A DNA stretch of 64,000 nt from Cyanomargarita calcarea GSE-NOS-MK-12-04C (lineage in GTDB: Bacteria; Cyanobacteriota; Cyanobacteriia; Cyanobacteriales; Nostocaceae): assembly GCA_019359595.1 (NCBI GenBank), contig JAHHGZ010000001.1:1-64000 (forward strand), written 5' to 3'. This document shows positions 34,821 to 43,127 of the stretch, piece by piece (position 1 is the first letter of the stretch; every line of letters starts with the position of its first letter). Made by a program: the position numbers and the translations under genes. Below the pieces are notes generated by a model. It saw only the letters and a list, made by a program, of their open reading frames with translations. It was not told the DNA's origin and made no database searches.

Positions 34821-37800
34821 CTACTCAAGAGGGATGGATATTACAAAAGAAGCTCCTTGTCCTGGTACAGAATTCACCTCAATTGTTCCACCGTGTTTTT
34901 CGACTACAATTTGATAGGCGATCGCCAGTCCCAATCCTGTTCCCTTGCCAACAGGTTTGGTAGTAAACAGATGGTCAAAGATTCTTGCTCTAACTTCTTC
35001 TGACATCCCTACTCCATTGTCCTGAATGCTAATCGCAACCTGCTTTTTGTTATTATTTATTTTGGTAGTTATTGTTATCCGATTGGGACTAGCCTCGATT
35101 TCACCAAAACTGCGTCCGGTATTTGATTCGTCCAATGCATCAATGCCATTGGCAAGCAAGTTCATAAACACTTGATTAAGTTGTCCTGGGAAACAATGAA
35201 TTTCTGGCAAATCATCATAGTTTTTCATCACTTCAATTTCAGGACGAATCTCTGAAGCTTTTAAGCGATGTTTGAGAATCATCAGGGTGCTGTCAATACC
35301 TTCATGGATATTGAAGGGTATTTTTTTGTCAGTATCTGCTCTAGAGAAAGTACGCAAACTGATGCTCATGTCACAAATACGATCCGCAGCTTGGTGCATT
35401 GAAGAAATTAATTTAGGCAAGTCATCTTGCACATAATCCAAATCTATCGCTTTAATTTCCTTTGCAATTTCTACGACTGGGTTAGGATAATACTTTTTAT
35501 ATAGGTCAATTAATTTAAACAAATCTTGTACATACTCCCGTGCAGGTTGTAAATTACCAACGAGAGAACCAATTGGGTTGTTGATTTCATGTCCTATACC
35601 TGACACTAAATTTCCCAACGCAGACATTTTTTCATTTTGTATTAGTTGCAATTGGGCGTGTTTCAGGTCTTCAAAGGAGCGTTCTAACTGCTGGGAATAA
35701 TCTTGAGATTGTTGATAGAGACGGGCATTCTCTAAGGAAATTGCAGCCTGGGAACAAAGTAAATTGAGGACTAAAAGTCTATCATCAGTAAATGCCCCGA
35801 CAGTGAGATTATTTTCCAAATATAAAATAGCAATCAACTTTCCTTGATTGAGAATCGGGTTGCATAACAAGCTTTTCGGTTGTTGCTCAAGAATATAGGG
35901 ATCGTTAAAATTATCAATATCTGCAACAGCGTCATCATTAAACATGACATACTCTTGCGTACGAGAGACATAGTTGATTAAATTAATAGGAATATCTTGA
36001 CTTTCTTCGACTGGAATTGATTGCAATACTGTTGTGATTGTCTTCGCAGCCAAACCAATAGCTTCAATTACCCATTCGCTCTTATTGGGCATCATGAGAA
36101 CACCTTTCGATGCGCCAGCATTCTCAATTAAAACTTGCATTAAATTGATGAGCAATTTATCAATTTGGATTTCGCTACTGATAGTCTGACTCGCTTTGAC
36201 AAAACTTATCAAATCTAGTGATTCTGAAATGATTGTACTGCTGGTGATTGTTTGATCAGTGCGACTGCTGATAGAAATAGTTTCTTGGGTATTTAAGTAA
36301 ACTTTTTCCCTTTGTTGGATGGGGGCGACTAATTGGGGATAGCGTTTTTCTAAATCATTTACTTTGGCTAATGCTCCCCACCGTGCATAGCAGTAATAAG
36401 CATTAATTAAGTAGGTTTGAGCAATCGTTTCTTTACCCCATTCGAGGTAGAATTTCGCAGCGAGTTCATTGGCAAGTGCTTCTTCTTGAAGATATTCATT
36501 TTGTTTAGCAAGAGCAATGGCTTTGTCGTAATAGTCCATTGCCACAACTTTTTCACCCAGAATCCGCTGCTGTTCTGCCTCAACAAGATAATATTTATGC
36601 AGAAAATTCATTGGGGCATGATTTGCCCAATGTTTCATTTTTTCCTGATTATAATTTACTTTTTCTAAAATCTGATTCTGCTCCGGCGATGTCACTTCAA
36701 AATATACTGCCAACTTCACAAGCGAATCATAAAAATAAAAGGCAGGGTAAATTAACAAACCCGTTAAGGCAGGAAGATATTTTTCTACTTCTACTGAATA
36801 TTCTAAAGCTAATGGTAAATTACCAACTAAATAATTCAACGTAAATTTATTGAAATATACCATGCCTATTGCCGTTATATCATTCATTGCTTCATGAATC
36901 GGTAACATGACTTGTTCATCATACACTTTGCCAATTAAACAACATACGTCTTGGCTTGGATTCATCAAATTTAAAACGGTTTGCTGCCAAATTTGCACAT
37001 ACCCAAGGCCGGTTTTTTGTTTAAGAAGCTTGAGCGTTTCACAATATGTTCCCATTTCACGCTCAAGTCCTGTTAATTCTTTACCTGTTAAATAACAACC
37101 AAAAGAATAATTATGTAACGCATAGGCAGCAAATTCTAAATCACCAGTTTGTAATCCGATTTGATAAACTTCTTGCAATGGTCTTAAGAAGTTTCGGGCA
37201 TGATTTTTCCAATGTCCAACCAAGCTGTTATAAAGAAGTAAAGTTTGAGCTTGTAGTGAAGTGGCATTAGTTTTGGACAATACATTTAGAGATAGTTGGG
37301 CAAATTCATAACCGACATCGATATTACCTACTACGCTGCATAAAAGAAAACCATAAGTACAATAACCATTTGCCGACAGTCCTGTATTACCATACTGGAT
37401 CGACAAATCAACCAACTTCAACGTAATTAAAGGTACAAATTCGGGACAACCGAGATAGGCCGCAGAGAACGTACTTGATAAGATACGCATGGCTGCTAAA
37501 ATTTTTAGGTCGGTCATTTCTGGCAGATTAATTAAATCTGCAATTTTTTTATTAGTTAATTGTTCTGCTGTTGCTTGAAATGCTTGTTGAATATCAGATT
37601 TAGTTGGTGCTTCTGGAAATTTTATATCGATTAATTTGAGAACATTAAAAGCTATTGTTAAGGCTTCTATTAGTTTATTCTGTACGATACAAGCTTGGAT
37701 TTTTATTTCATAAACCCTGACTTTATCTAGAAGGGTTGCCCCAAAATTAATAACTTTTTCTGCGAATCTGTCCATCTCTTCAAAGTCACCACAGAGATAG

Positions 37801-40217
37801 GCCGCATCACAAGCTTCTTCATGTAATGCCAAGCAGAGAGAATACTGATGCCAACTATCTACTCCAAGAATTTCTAATCCCAAACTGAAATGCTTCATTG
37901 CAGCCGTATAAGCAGTAGAAGACTTCGCTTTCCGTCCAGCAATTAAATTCAAGTGTGCTAGTTTATCCAGTTCTTCCTGCGTGTTGATTAACTCCACACC
38001 GTAATTCAACTGGTTAACAATATCAAAAATTCTCTCTTCCTGTTTGGCTGTAGGTGTGTTCTTCAACAAAAGTTGACCAATCTTTAAGTGTGTTGACTTT
38101 TTCTGAACTTCAGGAATGAGAGAATAAGCCGCTTGCTGTACGCGGTCGTGCAGAAATTTATAATTAATTTTTACTTGTGTATCGTTTTTAGGACTATTAT
38201 TTGATGATTCATCTTGAAAAAACTTATAAACTTCATTCGCAGGAATTAGAAGTCCTTCTTGCAATGCCTTCCATAATTCAGATGCAGTTTCCGATTGAGA
38301 TTTATTATTGACAATAGCAAGAGTCGCTAAATCAAATTGGTTACCGATACAAGCACCAAATTTCAGCACTTCTTGGGTGCTAATTGGCAATTTTTTTAAC
38401 TGAATTGCCATGAACTCTACTACATCAGTGGAAAGTGCTAATTGTTTAAGTGTAGAAAGTTCACATTGCCAATAATACTGTTCAAAGTTGAAGATAATTA
38501 GTCCATCTTCGTATAGTGATCTTATAAATTGGTTGCTAAAAAAAGGATTTCCACTGGTTTTTTGATGAACTAGCAAAGCTAGTGGGAAAGCGACCTCTAG
38601 AGAACATTTTAGAGTATCGCTAAGTAAATTATTTAAGTTAGTTGTAGACAAAGCATTGAGTGTTATTATGTTAACTTGTGCTTGATTTTTTCTAATTTCC
38701 TCTAATGTCAGCATTAGTGGATGGGCGAGTAATACTTCGTTATCTCGATAGGCACCAATTAGGAGTAAATGTTGCGTATTACTTTCACACATCAGCAATT
38801 CTATCAATTTCAAAGATGCTAAGTCAGCCCATTGTAAGTCATCGATAAAAATTACTAAAGGATGTTTTTTTGCTGTAAAAACCTGAATGAATTTTTGAAA
38901 TAATAAATTAAAGCGATTAGTGACTGCACTGCCAGAAATTTCAGCAACAGGAGGCTGTTTACCGATAATTTTTTCAAGTTCGGGAATTACCTCAATAATT
39001 ACCTGACCTTGCTCACCTAATGCTGCTAAAATTTGATTTCTCCATTCCTGGAGTTGAGCATTGCTTTCACTTAATAATTGTTCCATCAAATCCCGAAAAG
39101 CCTGCACAAATGCCGCTAAGGGAATATTGCGTTGAAATTGGTCATATTTACCTTTGATAAAATAACCCCGCTGCCGCACGATAGGTTTGTGAACTTCATT
39201 GACAACGGCAGTTTTACCAATTCCAGAAAAACCCGCTACCAACATCATTTCACGATTCCCTGCTGCTACACGGTCAAAGGCAGCAAGAAGAGTTTTAACT
39301 TCGGTTTCACGACCATACAGTTTTTCAGGAATAGCAAAACAGTCGGAGATATCCCTACTTCCTAACTCAAAAGATTCAAATTTTCCAATTTTTTGGTATG
39401 TCTGCCAACAAGCTTCTAAGTCATATTTCAACCCCAAAGCACTCTGGTAGCGGTCTTCAGCATTTTTCGCCATCAGCTTGGCAATAATGTCAGAAAGAAT
39501 GAGAGGAATATCGGGATTTATACTGTGAACCGAAGGGGGCTGCTTTGCTATATGGCAGTATACTAACTCCATTGCATCATCACTTGTAAAGGGTAACTGT
39601 CCTGTAAGCAGTTCAAACAAGGTGATACCTAATGAGTAAAAATCACTACGCCAATCGATACCCCGGTTCATGCGTCCAGTTTGTTCGGGGGAGATATAAG
39701 CGAGGGTACCTTCTAAGACGTTAGGATATCTTAAGGTTTGTGTTTCTCTCGGAAGTAGAGAGGCAATACTAAAGTCAATCAGTTTTATTTGCTTTGTAAT
39801 TGGGTTAATTAAAATATTGGCGGGTTTGATATCTTTATGAATTACTCGGTTGCGATACAGTCCTTCAAGAGTTGTAATAATTTGTATAGCTATGTGAAAA
39901 AACTCATCGAAGAAATTGGGGTTTTTCCCCACTTGGCACTCTTTTAGCGAAATTCCCCCAAAATCTTCCATCACCAGTGCATAACTGTTATGGTAAGGTT
40001 CCAAGCTATAGGTTTTGATTACACCAGGAAGATCGATATTTTTAGCAATACTATATTGGTTGCGAAACTGAACCAGTTCGCTAAAGGTGGGATATTCGTG
40101 TCGCAGCAGTTTAATTACAACTGGTTCATCATCCGATTCCTTAATACCCCGATATACCAGAGTTTTAGTGCCTGAATAAATTTGGTCAAGGAATTGATAA
40201 CCAGAGAGTTTCATCAT
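34821..40217 (-). CDS. Giant Ser/Thr kinase - AAA ATPase - GAF - histidine kinase hybrid
   Basis: 1798 residues. Domains in order: Hanks-type kinase (about 8-270) with VIKLL lysine, HKDIKPANIL loop, IDFSIAS (DFS in place of DFG) and YISPEQTGR; an AAA/STAND ATPase with Walker A GFSGIGKT (about 329-336) and Walker B LVIFIDDLQWAD; a long helical TPR-like middle (about 700-1330); a GAF domain (about 1365-1525); a histidine kinase with phospho-acceptor His near 1543 in GHEINNP and the ATPase box GTGLGLAIAY. These hybrids are typical of filamentous cyanobacteria. All catalytic motifs look intact. No response regulator is adjacent. Confidence 0.95.
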   Translation of the reverse strand: MMKLSGYQFLDQIYSGTKTLVYRGIKESDDEPVVIKLLRHEYPTFSELVQFRNQYSIAKNIDLPGVIKTYSLEPYHNSYALVMEDFGGISLKECQVGKNPNFFDEFFHIAIQIITTLEGLYRNRVIHKDIKPANILINPITKQIKLIDFSIASLLPRETQTLRYPNVLEGTLAYISPEQTGRMNRGIDWRSDFYSLGITLFELLTGQLPFTSDDAMELVYCHIAKQPPSVHSINPDIPLILSDIIAKLMAKNAEDRYQSALGLKYDLEACWQTYQKIGKFESFELGSRDISDCFAIPEKLYGRETEVKTLLAAFDRVAAGNREMMLVAGFSGIGKTAVVNEVHKPIVRQRGYFIKGKYDQFQRNIPLAAFVQAFRDLMEQLLSESNAQLQEWRNQILAALGEQGQVIIEVIPELEKIIGKQPPVAEISGSAVTNRFNLLFQKFIQVFTAKKHPLVIFIDDLQWADLASLKLIELLMCESNTQHLLLIGAYRDNEVLLAHPLMLTLEEIRKNQAQVNIITLNALSTTNLNNLLSDTLKCSLEVAFPLALLVHQKTSGNPFFSNQFIRSLYEDGLIIFNFEQYYWQCELSTLKQLALSTDVVEFMAIQLKKLPISTQEVLKFGACIGNQFDLATLAIVNNKSQSETASELWKALQEGLLIPANEVYKFFQDESSNNSPKNDTQVKINYKFLHDRVQQAAYSLIPEVQKKSTHLKIGQLLLKNTPTAKQEERIFDIVNQLNYGVELINTQEELDKLAHLNLIAGRKAKSSTAYTAAMKHFSLGLEILGVDSWHQYSLCLALHEEACDAAYLCGDFEEMDRFAEKVINFGATLLDKVRVYEIKIQACIVQNKLIEALTIAFNVLKLIDIKFPEAPTKSDIQQAFQATAEQLTNKKIADLINLPEMTDLKILAAMRILSSTFSAAYLGCPEFVPLITLKLVDLSIQYGNTGLSANGYCTYGFLLCSVVGNIDVGYEFAQLSLNVLSKTNATSLQAQTLLLYNSLVGHWKNHARNFLRPLQEVYQIGLQTGDLEFAAYALHNYSFGCYLTGKELTGLEREMGTYCETLKLLKQKTGLGYVQIWQQTVLNLMNPSQDVCCLIGKVYDEQVMLPIHEAMNDITAIGMVYFNKFTLNYLVGNLPLALEYSVEVEKYLPALTGLLIYPAFYFYDSLVKLAVYFEVTSPEQNQILEKVNYNQEKMKHWANHAPMNFLHKYYLVEAEQQRILGEKVVAMDYYDKAIALAKQNEYLQEEALANELAAKFYLEWGKETIAQTYLINAYYCYARWGALAKVNDLEKRYPQLVAPIQQREKVYLNTQETISISSRTDQTITSSTIISESLDLISFVKASQTISSEIQIDKLLINLMQVLIENAGASKGVLMMPNKSEWVIEAIGLAAKTITTVLQSIPVEESQDIPINLINYVSRTQEYVMFNDDAVADIDNFNDPYILEQQPKSLLCNPILNQGKLIAILYLENNLTVGAFTDDRLLVLNLLCSQAAISLENARLYQQSQDYSQQLERSFEDLKHAQLQLIQNEKMSALGNLVSGIGHEINNPIGSLVGNLQPAREYVQDLFKLIDLYKKYYPNPVVEIAKEIKAIDLDYVQDDLPKLISSMHQAADRICDMSISLRTFSRADTDKKIPFNIHEGIDSTLMILKHRLKASEIRPEIEVMKNYDDLPEIHCFPGQLNQVFMNLLANGIDALDESNTGRSFGEIEASPNRITITTKINNNKKQVAISIQDNGVGMSEEVRARIFDHLFTTKPVGKGTGLGLAIAYQIVVEKHGGTIEVNSVPGQGASFVISIPLE

Positions 40218-40664
40218 ATCTGCCTTCTGGGTAGATGGTAATTGGTGGTAAAGGTATTATTCCCATTCACAGAAGAAAACATTCAACGCCATGCTGTGTA
40301 TGTCTACCTTTTTCCATCAAGATTCGCTTAATTTAGCGCATCCGCGTCGGTTTATGCTTGTGTAGCTCCAGCTTTCTAGCCTGCGGCTGATTAATTGGTA
40401 TAAAGTGGAGAGCCAACGTCTGGAACAAAAAGCCTTACCCTTCTGGGGCTTGTCATTTGAAGGGTCTGTTGCGGGTGCTCACCTGAATACACTTAGGAAT
40501 TTTGCGATAAAATGTAAATATCAATACTCAGTATTAATCGCGAACCTCCCGATCGCCAGGGACTCTAAGTCGAATGGCACGCTTGTTAGCTCACATCTTG
40601 CACCAGGATATGGTCAATACAAAAATAACTAAGTATTTATAGATTCTTTGACTGCGCTCCTATC

Positions 40665-40709
40665 CGTCAGGGACTTATCTTACTGCCATTCGACTCTAAG
40701 TCCCTGACG
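40665..40709. repeat. Hairpin with 13-bp arms
   Basis: CGTCAGGGACTTA (40665-40677) and TAAGTCCCTGACG (40697-40709) around a 19-base loop. The same GACAGGGACTT text occurs near 48999. Confidence 0.7.
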
Positions 40710-40718
40710 AGTCGCGAA

Positions 40719-40922: not shown

Positions 40923-40950
40923 AAAACCTTCTCAATACTGAGAAGGTTTT
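40923..40950 (-). terminator. Terminator of the 25-residue peptide gene
   Basis: AAAACCTTCTCA / TGAGAAGGTTTT, 12-bp perfect arms with a four-base loop, 35 bases past the small gene's stop codon; a T-rich end follows on the minus strand. Confidence 0.65.
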
Positions 40951-40985
40951 ATAAAGTTTTATTAAAAAAATATTCTGAACCAACA

Positions 40986-41063
40986 TTAAAAAATACTCAT
41001 GATAGTGATGATGCCAGCACTGGTAATCATGACCATAACTCCCATAGCTATAGATACATTCAT
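40986..41063 (-). CDS. Candidate 25-residue hydrophobic peptide
   Basis: The frame reads MNVSIAMGVMVMITSAGI and ends TIMSIF, essentially one membrane-spanning helix without charges. AAGGA (41073-41077) lies nine bases before the ATG, an ideal ribosome site, and a clean intrinsic terminator follows (40923-40950). It resembles in size the tiny subunits of photosynthetic complexes, but I do not recognise it as any of them. The evidence is signals plus composition; homologues are needed to confirm it. Confidence 0.5.
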   Translation of the reverse strand: MNVSIAMGVMVMITSAGIITIMSIF

Positions 41064-41342
41064 TTTTTTAGATCCTTTTTACTTATCTTTGTTATTTTCA
41101 CAATATCAGCCTCAGTAAATATATCTATTTAAACAACGCAAAACTTAAGTTAATGTAAAGTATCTTAACAATTATGAGAGTAGTTTAATATGCGCGAACT
41201 AAAGTATTCCACTGTTCTCCGGGGTAATCAAGCAAACATCCCTGGAACTCACCAACAGCAAAATCTATGGAAATGGTGTTTTGGTGCTTCATTATCGTGT
41301 AAGAATGTAACCGATGCAACTAACACAACCATTGGACTTTCT

Positions 41343-41825
41343 ATGGTAGAACATAATCCAGTGACGGACAAAGCCCCATCGGAGGCGACTATCGCATTAC
41401 GGGAAATCACTAAGGAAAACCTTTCAGATATCCTCAAGCTAAAAGTCGGTAATCATCAACAACAATTCGTTGCTTCCAATGCTGTGTCTATTGCCCAAGC
41501 TCATTTTTCACAGGAAGTTGCTTGGTTTCGAGCAATTTATGCAGACGAAGTACCAGTTGGTTTTCTGATGTTGGAAGACGATCCAGATAATGCATCCTAC
41601 TATCTTTGGCGCTTCATGATAGACGAACGTTTCCAGAAACGTGGATTTGGAAAACGTGCTTTGAAATTATTAATTGAGCATGTCAAAACACGTCCTGGGG
41701 TGACAGCTTTACTAACAAGTTGTGTTCCTGGAGAGGGAAGTCCCGGTAAATTTTATGAGAAGGTTGGGTTTATGTATACAGGTCACGTAGAAGATGAGGA
41801 ATTAGTGATGCGTCTTGAATTTTAA
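41343..41825 (+). CDS. GNAT family N-acetyltransferase
   Basis: 160 residues from ATG 41343; the frame also opens at 41190, adding 51 residues (including LWKWCFGASLSCKN) that look foreign to the fold. The GNAT core starts at IALREITKENLSDILKL, with YLWRFMIDERFQKRGFGKRAL as the acetyl-CoA loop and FYEKVGFMYTGHVEDEE at the end. It resembles spermine/spermidine acetyltransferases of the BltD/PaiA kind, but the substrate is not predictable. Which start is used is unresolved. Confidence 0.85.
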   Translation: MVEHNPVTDKAPSEATIALREITKENLSDILKLKVGNHQQQFVASNAVSIAQAHFSQEVAWFRAIYADEVPVGFLMLEDDPDNASYYLWRFMIDERFQKRGFGKRALKLLIEHVKTRPGVTALLTSCVPGEGSPGKFYEKVGFMYTGHVEDEELVMRLEF

Positions 41826-41873: not shown

Positions 41874-43127
41874 ATGATTAAAATCCTTCATCTTTCCGAC
41901 ATCCATATGGGGAGCGGCTTTTCCCACGGACGCATCAACTCTGAAACAGGATTAAATACACGATTAGAGGATTTTGTCAACACTTTGTCTCAGTGTATTG
42001 ACAGAGCGCTAGCAGAACCAGTGGATTTAGTGATATTTGGTGGTGATGCCTTCCCAGATGCTACCCCACCGCCCTACGTACAAGAAGCTTTTGCCAGTCA
42101 GTTTCGCCGCCTGGTGGATGCCGAAATACCGACAGTATTGCTGGTGGGTAATCATGACCAACATTCCCAAGGGCAAGGTGGAGCGAGTTTGTGCATTTAC
42201 CGCACCTTAGGAGTACCTGGTTTTATTGTCGGCGATCGCGTAACTACTCACCGTATCCAAACTCGCAGTGGGGCTGTGCAAGTTATTACCTTACCTTGGC
42301 TGACTCGTTCGGCATTGATGACTCGCCAAGATACTGAAGGTTTATCAATGGCGGAAGTTAACGAATTGCTAACAGAACGGCTGCGAGTTGTTTTGGAGGG
42401 AGAAGTTCGCCGTCTTGACCCGGAAGTCCCAACCGTGATGCTAGCACACTTGATGGCGGATAATGCAAACTTGGGAGCCGAGCGCTTTTTGGCTGTGGGC
42501 AAGGGTTTTACATTACCTTTATCCTTACTGACACGACCCTGTTTTGATTATGTAGCTTTGGGACACGTCCACAAACACCAGAACTTGAACAAGTCGAACG
42601 ATCCACCAGTAATCTATCCAGGGAGTATTGAACGGGTAGATTTTAGTGAAGAGAAGGAAGACAAAGGCTATGTAATGGTGGAATTGGAGAGGGGTAGCGT
42701 GGAGTGGAAATTTTGTCCCTTATCGGCGCGAGTGTTCCGTACCATAGAAGTGGATGTATCGAAAGCCGAAGACCCACAATCACTAATATTGAAAGCGATC
42801 GCCAAACATAATATCGAAGATGCGGTTGTCAGATTAATTTACAAACTCCGCTCCGAACAGTTGGATTTAATCGAGAACTCGATACTACATGATGCTTTAA
42901 CTTCAGCACACACGTACACCATTCAACCAGAATTGGTCAGTCAGTTAGCTCGACCCCGCGTTCCAGAATTGACTGCCAGTAGTAGCATAGACCCAATGGA
43001 TGCGCTAAAAACGTACTTAAATAACCGCGAAGACCTGAAAGAAATTGCCACATCAATGATGGAAGCAGCACATAAATTGTTAACAGATGATGTTCCAATT
43101 TGGTTAAAAGGTGCAGCGAACGAATAG
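41874..43127 (+). CDS. SbcD-like DNA repair exonuclease subunit
   Basis: 417 residues. Calcineurin-type metal motifs are all visible: LHLSDIHMG at the N-terminus, VIFGGDAFPD, VGNHDQ, MLAHLMAD and LGHVHKHQ. SbcD/Mre11 cuts hairpin and blocked DNA ends with the SMC-like ATPase SbcC. No sbcC gene follows; instead there is a terminator and an SDR gene. The palindrome load of this genome makes such a nuclease relevant. ATG start, 48 bases after the acetyltransferase. Confidence 0.9.
   Translation: MIKILHLSDIHMGSGFSHGRINSETGLNTRLEDFVNTLSQCIDRALAEPVDLVIFGGDAFPDATPPPYVQEAFASQFRRLVDAEIPTVLLVGNHDQHSQGQGGASLCIYRTLGVPGFIVGDRVTTHRIQTRSGAVQVITLPWLTRSALMTRQDTEGLSMAEVNELLTERLRVVLEGEVRRLDPEVPTVMLAHLMADNANLGAERFLAVGKGFTLPLSLLTRPCFDYVALGHVHKHQNLNKSNDPPVIYPGSIERVDFSEEKEDKGYVMVELERGSVEWKFCPLSARVFRTIEVDVSKAEDPQSLILKAIAKHNIEDAVVRLIYKLRSEQLDLIENSILHDALTSAHTYTIQPELVSQLARPRVPELTASSSIDPMDALKTYLNNREDLKEIATSMMEAAHKLLTDDVPIWLKGAANE

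Follow-up and report, generated by a model that had tools for sequence, protein, structure and literature searches.

A small open reading frame conserved across many cyanobacterial families is predicted to encode a single-pass membrane protein under a promoter of its own

The 64,000-nucleotide stretch of DNA analysed here (the window) carries a small open reading frame (smORF) on its minus strand, which runs for 25 codons from an ATG at 41063 to a stop codon at 40988-40986. The frame, its immediate signals and the neighbouring genes are listed in Table 1. The original prediction, made by reading the letters of the window, had described the frame as the gene of an uncharacterised 25-residue membrane peptide with an ideal ribosome site and a matched terminator, unlikely to have arisen by chance. 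Both signals were recovered: AGGA (41076-41073) lies nine bases upstream of the ATG, and downstream of the stop codon the sequence folds into a hairpin that runs into a T-rich tail. An automated terminator scan of the window reported none at the smORF, though folding shows a clear stem at 40948-40925; the scan probably extended the stem into the flanking A/T pairs, which left it no T-run to count. With a predicted transcription start near 41093, the transcript would extend over about 175 nt to the terminator. Beyond the terminator, the first large gene on the minus strand is that of a multidomain kinase; it begins at 40217, some 700 nt further on. A 27-nt inverted repeat (40553-40579 and 40684-40710, 85% complementary, 104 nt apart) lies between the terminator and the kinase gene. 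The 163-nt element concerned looks like a dispersed MITE-like repeat, since it has 51 matches in its own genome (itself included, the others partial).

Table 1. Features at the smORF locus, in coordinates of the window
Feature	Position	Strand	Basis and remarks
Kinase gene, 1798 aa (Ser/Thr kinase, AAA, GAF and histidine-kinase ATPase domains)	34821-40217	-	
Rho-independent terminator, hairpin AACCTTCTCAGTATTGAGAAGGTT then TTTATATA	40925..40948	-	folding; T-rich tail to ~40917
smORF, 25 aa, product MNVSIAMGVMVMITSAGIITIMSIF, one predicted transmembrane helix	40986..41063	-	sequence, homologues, codon test; helix from 34-aa relative
Ribosome binding site AGGATCT	41070..41076	-	read from sequence
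Extended -10 element TGATATTGT	41100..41108	-	position kept across family; 36 nt between element and ATG
Triple TTAAG-like direct repeat, 10-nt period, TTAAGATACTTTACATTAACTTAAG, putative activator site	41144..41168	-	upstream alignment
GNAT acetyltransferase gene, divergent neighbour of smORF	41190..41825	+	domain search
sbcD-like exonuclease gene, beyond the GNAT gene	41874..43127	+	domain search

The smORF belongs to a family that is, as judged by our searches, conserved across many cyanobacterial families and absent from the libraries searched. With the 25-residue product as query, a search of 60 relatives at E up to 10 returned matches in 32, of which 29 have an E below 0.06. The 32 include 30 of the 36 Nostocaceae genomes searched, with the window's own genome counted. 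Two weak matches within Nostocaceae (G031 and G035) were upheld by a later profile search, which gave no confirmation of a third, outside that family (G056). A scan of named genomes yielded 48 loci, in genera that include Scytonema, Brasilonema, Calothrix, Tolypothrix, Nostoc, Cylindrospermum, Chlorogloeopsis, Aliterella and Gloeocapsopsis. A first profile of 29 sequences picked up relatives in other families, and some of these were added to make a second profile. In a sample of 388 genomes from across the class, the latter matched 71 (E up to 1e-5), at one place each, and 60 of these 71 genomes lie outside Nostocaceae. All 40 members from other families that were fetched with their flanks show a short frame in which an LG[QE]S-like motif precedes a hydrophobic stretch. 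Within the Nostocaceae sample, a profile matched 182 of 217 genomes, with a single match in each of those listed (E up to 1e-4), covering 46 of 56 genera. The 20 listed of the 35 genomes that gave no match are 4.0-6.0 Mb in size; 16 of them belong to one genus, g27, from which there is no match among those listed. Descent is presumably vertical. The family was also considered as mobile cargo, a candidate we rejected as no match was found in 72,556 plasmid or 50,697 phage records, although these were weak searches, run without a positive control and with a hydrophobic query of 34 aa. A similarly weak and uncontrolled search of viral contigs with a short hydrophobic query returned 38 stretches that fitted the search pattern, none of which was confirmed.

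Codon statistics were taken from 78 members, 68 of them distinct, nearly all from Nostocaceae with the addition of Aliterella and Gloeocapsopsis. Over the 68 distinct members, the mean entropies at codon positions 1, 2 and 3 are 0.75, 0.37 and 1.26, and the mean pS of 0.68 compares with a mean pN of 0.22. Synonymous and nonsynonymous sites thus contrast among relatives, with a median dN/dS of 0.225 (Nei-Gojobori type; dS was usable in 817 of 2278 pairs), a pattern by which purifying selection is acting on the family. The original prediction had named the absence of such a contrast as its refutation, and the outcome speaks for the gene. Judged from this protein-like constraint together with conservation across relatives, a chance origin is excluded, in agreement with the original prediction, and the smORF is almost certainly a real protein-coding gene. 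The original reading as an uncharacterised gene for a membrane peptide is supported, with both translation and membrane location being predicted. A reading as non-coding RNA only was ruled out by the codon-position statistics, and the window holds no Rfam match at gathering thresholds.

The length of 25 residues holds for the window copy and fails as the typical length of the family. The usual Nostocaceae product has 34 aa, e.g. MNDFKTPNSLNQSLVMGVLVMLTSAGVITIMNLF, and against this form the window copy carries a 27-nt in-frame deletion that removes nine polar N-terminal codons; upstream of its ATG there is no alternative in-frame start before a stop. None of the 68 members is shorter, the next in length having 31 aa, and the other 67 fall between 31 and 34 aa, while the 40 members from other families range from 31 to 39 aa. 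One further genome of the Nostocaceae sample (G501) has an open frame of 30 codons and so comes close to the window copy in length. The deletion leaves the window copy with its helix core and the conserved C-terminal F.

The N-terminus shared by members of the family is polar and mostly basic; behind it lies a single hydrophobic stretch, which reaches to within a few residues of the C-terminus. AlphaFold2, run on a 34-aa relative as the 25 aa of the window copy are below its length limit, gave a single helix over residues 8-33, with pLDDT of at least 90 in 20 of 34 residues and a pTM of 0.43. By the positive-inside rule, the basic segment of a membrane protein stays on the cytoplasmic side. 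Since K and R are absent from the last 21 residues in all 68 members, and from the part after the GQS-like motif in 34 of the 40 members from other families, an N-in topology is expected, with the basic N-terminus in the cytoplasm and the C-terminus facing the lumen or periplasm. A permutation test on the 68-member set shows the conserved residues clustered on one face of the helix (p = 0.014), but the clustering is not significant outside Nostocaceae (p = 0.21; joint p = 0.07), and we regard the signal as weak. Residue S13 is invariant in the 68-member set, and only there, since it is replaced in seven of ten further copies, by Y in six and by I in one (nine of the ten had been picked for their low scores). 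The six copies with Y (L178, L179, L181, L182, L184 and L185) all come from a single genus, g61, and have REY in place of the pre-helix G-Q/E-S. By eye, their promoter elements are still in place, and so is a hairpin resembling a terminator. A change of partner or of function in these copies is possible.

The neighbourhood of the gene was compared in two sets of 48 loci. In the first, consisting of the named loci, 30 of 48 have a cysH gene (PAPS reductase; one member was checked, as TIGR02057) upstream and on the other strand, directly adjacent in 28, and an sbcD-like gene is found nearby in 27; one or both are present in 37 of 48. At the window locus, sbcD has been retained and the GNAT gene occupies the position of cysH. 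The second set comprises 40 loci from other families and 8 from named genomes. Here a cluster of PHP-domain proteins is found in 23 of 48 loci, always convergent and downstream, and a cluster of LuxR-type response regulators in 17 of 48, directly upstream on the same strand in 10 of the 17; the domains of both clusters rest on one checked member each. A partner by gene neighbourhood was sought in both sets and none was found, and because the neighbours differ between lineages, the context points to no complex. The smORF has thus moved between contexts while its own promoter was kept, which fits an autonomous unit.

The promoter was examined in an upstream alignment of the 68 members and 39 regions from other families, which share two blocks, namely three TTAAG/TTACR-like units at a 10-nt period and an extended -10 element of the form TGATATTnT. 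The mean score of the triple box is 13.5 of 15 in the 68 members, against 11.2 in dinucleotide shuffles, and 12.2 against 10.6 in the 39 other regions. Its spacing is also kept. Among the 68 members, 61 have the start of the box 59-61 nt upstream of the -10. Of the 39 regions from other families, 15 failed on box score or lacked a -10 match, and 22 of the other 24 show this spacing. The downstream end of the unit is conserved too, with a simple terminator rule holding for 41 of 68 members (1.3% of mononucleotide shuffles) and for 22 of 40 members from other families (7.5% of such shuffles).

Which regulator might act at these boxes? They would lie at about -75 to -51 relative to the predicted start; for RpaB bound at HLR1, the text available of a published study gives an activating range of about -66 to -45 (PMC13421787). 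Using the HLR1 consensus from the accessible part of another paper (PMC11633204), the best score at the promoter is 12.8 of 16 against 12.2 in shuffles for the 68 members, and 12.2 against 11.7 for the 39 other regions. The fit to a Pho-box consensus is likewise slightly above shuffles. Since both fits exceed the shuffles only slightly, an OmpR-type regulator at the triple box is a guess from the spacing. A regulon sharing the box was considered and rejected, as the strict pattern has three sites in the window's own genome, one of which is the smORF promoter, whereas the reversed control has 15. When the pattern was relaxed, 21 genomes yielded 16 matches, and the reversed control yielded 11; nine of the 16 are the smORF promoter, and at five of the other seven sites, which were inspected, no family member lies downstream. 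The triple box is nearly private to the smORF promoter, and elsewhere it is no commoner than the reversed control.

We propose, with about an even chance of being right, that the product crosses the membrane once, N-terminus inside, and serves some larger membrane protein as a regulated accessory subunit. The smORF would be transcribed alone and yield a small single-pass membrane protein, its expression being switched on by an OmpR-type response regulator that binds the three boxes spaced at 10 nt. The peptide would insert with its basic N-terminus in the cytoplasm and its C-terminus toward the lumen or periplasm, and the helix face carrying the conserved small residues (S, G and S, plus I and M) would dock onto a larger membrane protein or complex, which the docked peptide would stabilise or tune. 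Many small cyanobacterial subunits are known to stabilise or tune larger complexes in this way. An accessory rather than a core part is suggested because many genomes lack the family. A bolder and decidedly tentative version would see in the family an old microprotein with a near-private promoter element, the dedicated output of one response regulator and a condition-specific subunit of a complex in the thylakoid or plasma membrane. If so, why would it have been missed by existing structures? The species solved may lack the gene, or may have been grown without induction.

Could such a peptide act without any dedicated large partner? A stress peptide that is induced under a given condition and alters membrane properties by itself, as a monomer or homo-oligomer, would also have a dedicated conserved promoter, its small helix residues would permit self-packing, and both the missing stable genomic partner and the 35 of 217 Nostocaceae genomes that manage without the smORF are in line with it. 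However, the position-specific conservation of the helix exceeds what a generic hydrophobic segment would need, and we consider this explanation unlikely, if the best placed of the rivals. A second explanation shifts attention from the peptide to its message, with the transcript of about 175 nt serving as a small RNA that encodes the peptide and has base-pairing with mRNAs as an important second role. The short unit with conserved promoter and terminator, the conserved stretch between stop codon and terminator, and the heterocystous small RNAs that include several predicted to encode small proteins (in the part available of PMC4734099) all speak in its favour, but the constraint on the frame is protein-like, conservation is lower in the leader than in the promoter, and Rfam gave no match in the window at gathering thresholds, so that we hold a dual function to be improbable.

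Type I toxins, small hydrophobic peptides silenced by an antisense RNA, are commonly mobile or multicopy. Only size and hydrophobicity recommend the smORF product as the toxin of such a toxin-antitoxin pair, and its single match per genome, its wide distribution, a common chromosomal neighbourhood in 37 of the 48 named loci and the lack of any plasmid, phage or viral-contig match (in weak searches with a short query and no positive control) make this very improbable. Least credible of all is a leader peptide or upstream frame controlling a downstream gene, for which one could cite the short frame with its own ribosome site and the kinase gene as next large gene on the strand, since the terminator and the dispersed repeat separate the two, and the next gene elsewhere varies and is often convergent. 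The accessory subunit remains our preferred reading. Small membrane proteins are often overlooked by annotation and by family libraries, yet several determine how the energy complexes of cyanobacteria operate. The smORF family, with its conserved residues, its box and spacing, and the lineages that lack the gene, offers a ready handle for functional study.

The original prediction had noted a resemblance to small photosynthetic or stress peptides while recognising none in particular. Consistent with the latter, Pfam, NCBIfam and PHROGs gave no significant match and none above a curated cut-off where one exists, the only rows being NF006248, to which a 34-aa relative scored 15.4 bits (E 0.013) where the cut-off is 92, and phrog_22965 with a 36-aa relative (E 0.38). 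We take the first of these, antiporter subunit B, as a reflection of helix composition, and rejected it. The PDB likewise gave no match at E up to 10, with a single sequence or a profile as query, while a PsbT control matched 32 distinct sequences; on this ground we also rejected the product as a subunit of a known complex. The resemblance therefore holds for general size and type, as to photosynthetic subunits or stress peptides such as SliP4, and does not extend to a sequence match in the PDB. Small subunits of the PsbT, PsbM, PetL and PetM type, found in the photosystems, cytochrome b6f and NDH-1, have 30-40 aa and one helix, and the smORF product is similar to them in size and in its single helix. 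However, core photosynthetic subunits occur in nearly all oxygenic phototrophs, whereas the smORF family is patchy, at 71 of 388 genomes across the class and 182 of 217 in Nostocaceae.

In the literature searched, with supplementary tables (where a Nostoc 7120 orthologue might be listed) outside its scope, we recognised no published description of the family. A proteogenomic study of Nostoc 7120 from 2021 reported 26 novel genes (PMC8557916), and the smORF gene is not mentioned in the sections available of that study or of a review of small proteins (PMC7760959). A 2016 study of small RNAs in heterocystous strains, of which the accessible part was used, describes several transcripts predicted to encode small proteins, among them ncl0160, whose peptide of 23-25 aa has 83 cyanobacterial homologues and is present in all 27 heterocystous strains examined (PMC4734099). 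Both are short conserved cyanobacterial peptides, ncl0160 having been predicted from an sRNA-like transcript. However, when compared by description, the smORF family is mostly 31-39 aa long and was not found in 35 of 217 Nostocaceae genomes, and the two are unlikely to be identical.

A closer parallel in kind may be drawn with SliP4 (formerly HliR1), a protein of 37 aa from Synechocystis sp. PCC 6803 that has a regulated promoter and was first taken for a non-coding RNA, according to the portions available of two papers (PMC5126843; PMC12850537). Its N-terminus reads MSNLIAVAF, and both of its ends, which alone were compared, by eye and from the printed primers, differ from those of the smORF family. 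The available text of the 2016 paper reports no homologues of SliP4 outside Synechocystis (PMC5126843), whereas the smORF family is widespread. Nevertheless, both are small single-pass cyanobacterial membrane proteins, as predicted in the case of the smORF, and each has a dedicated promoter.
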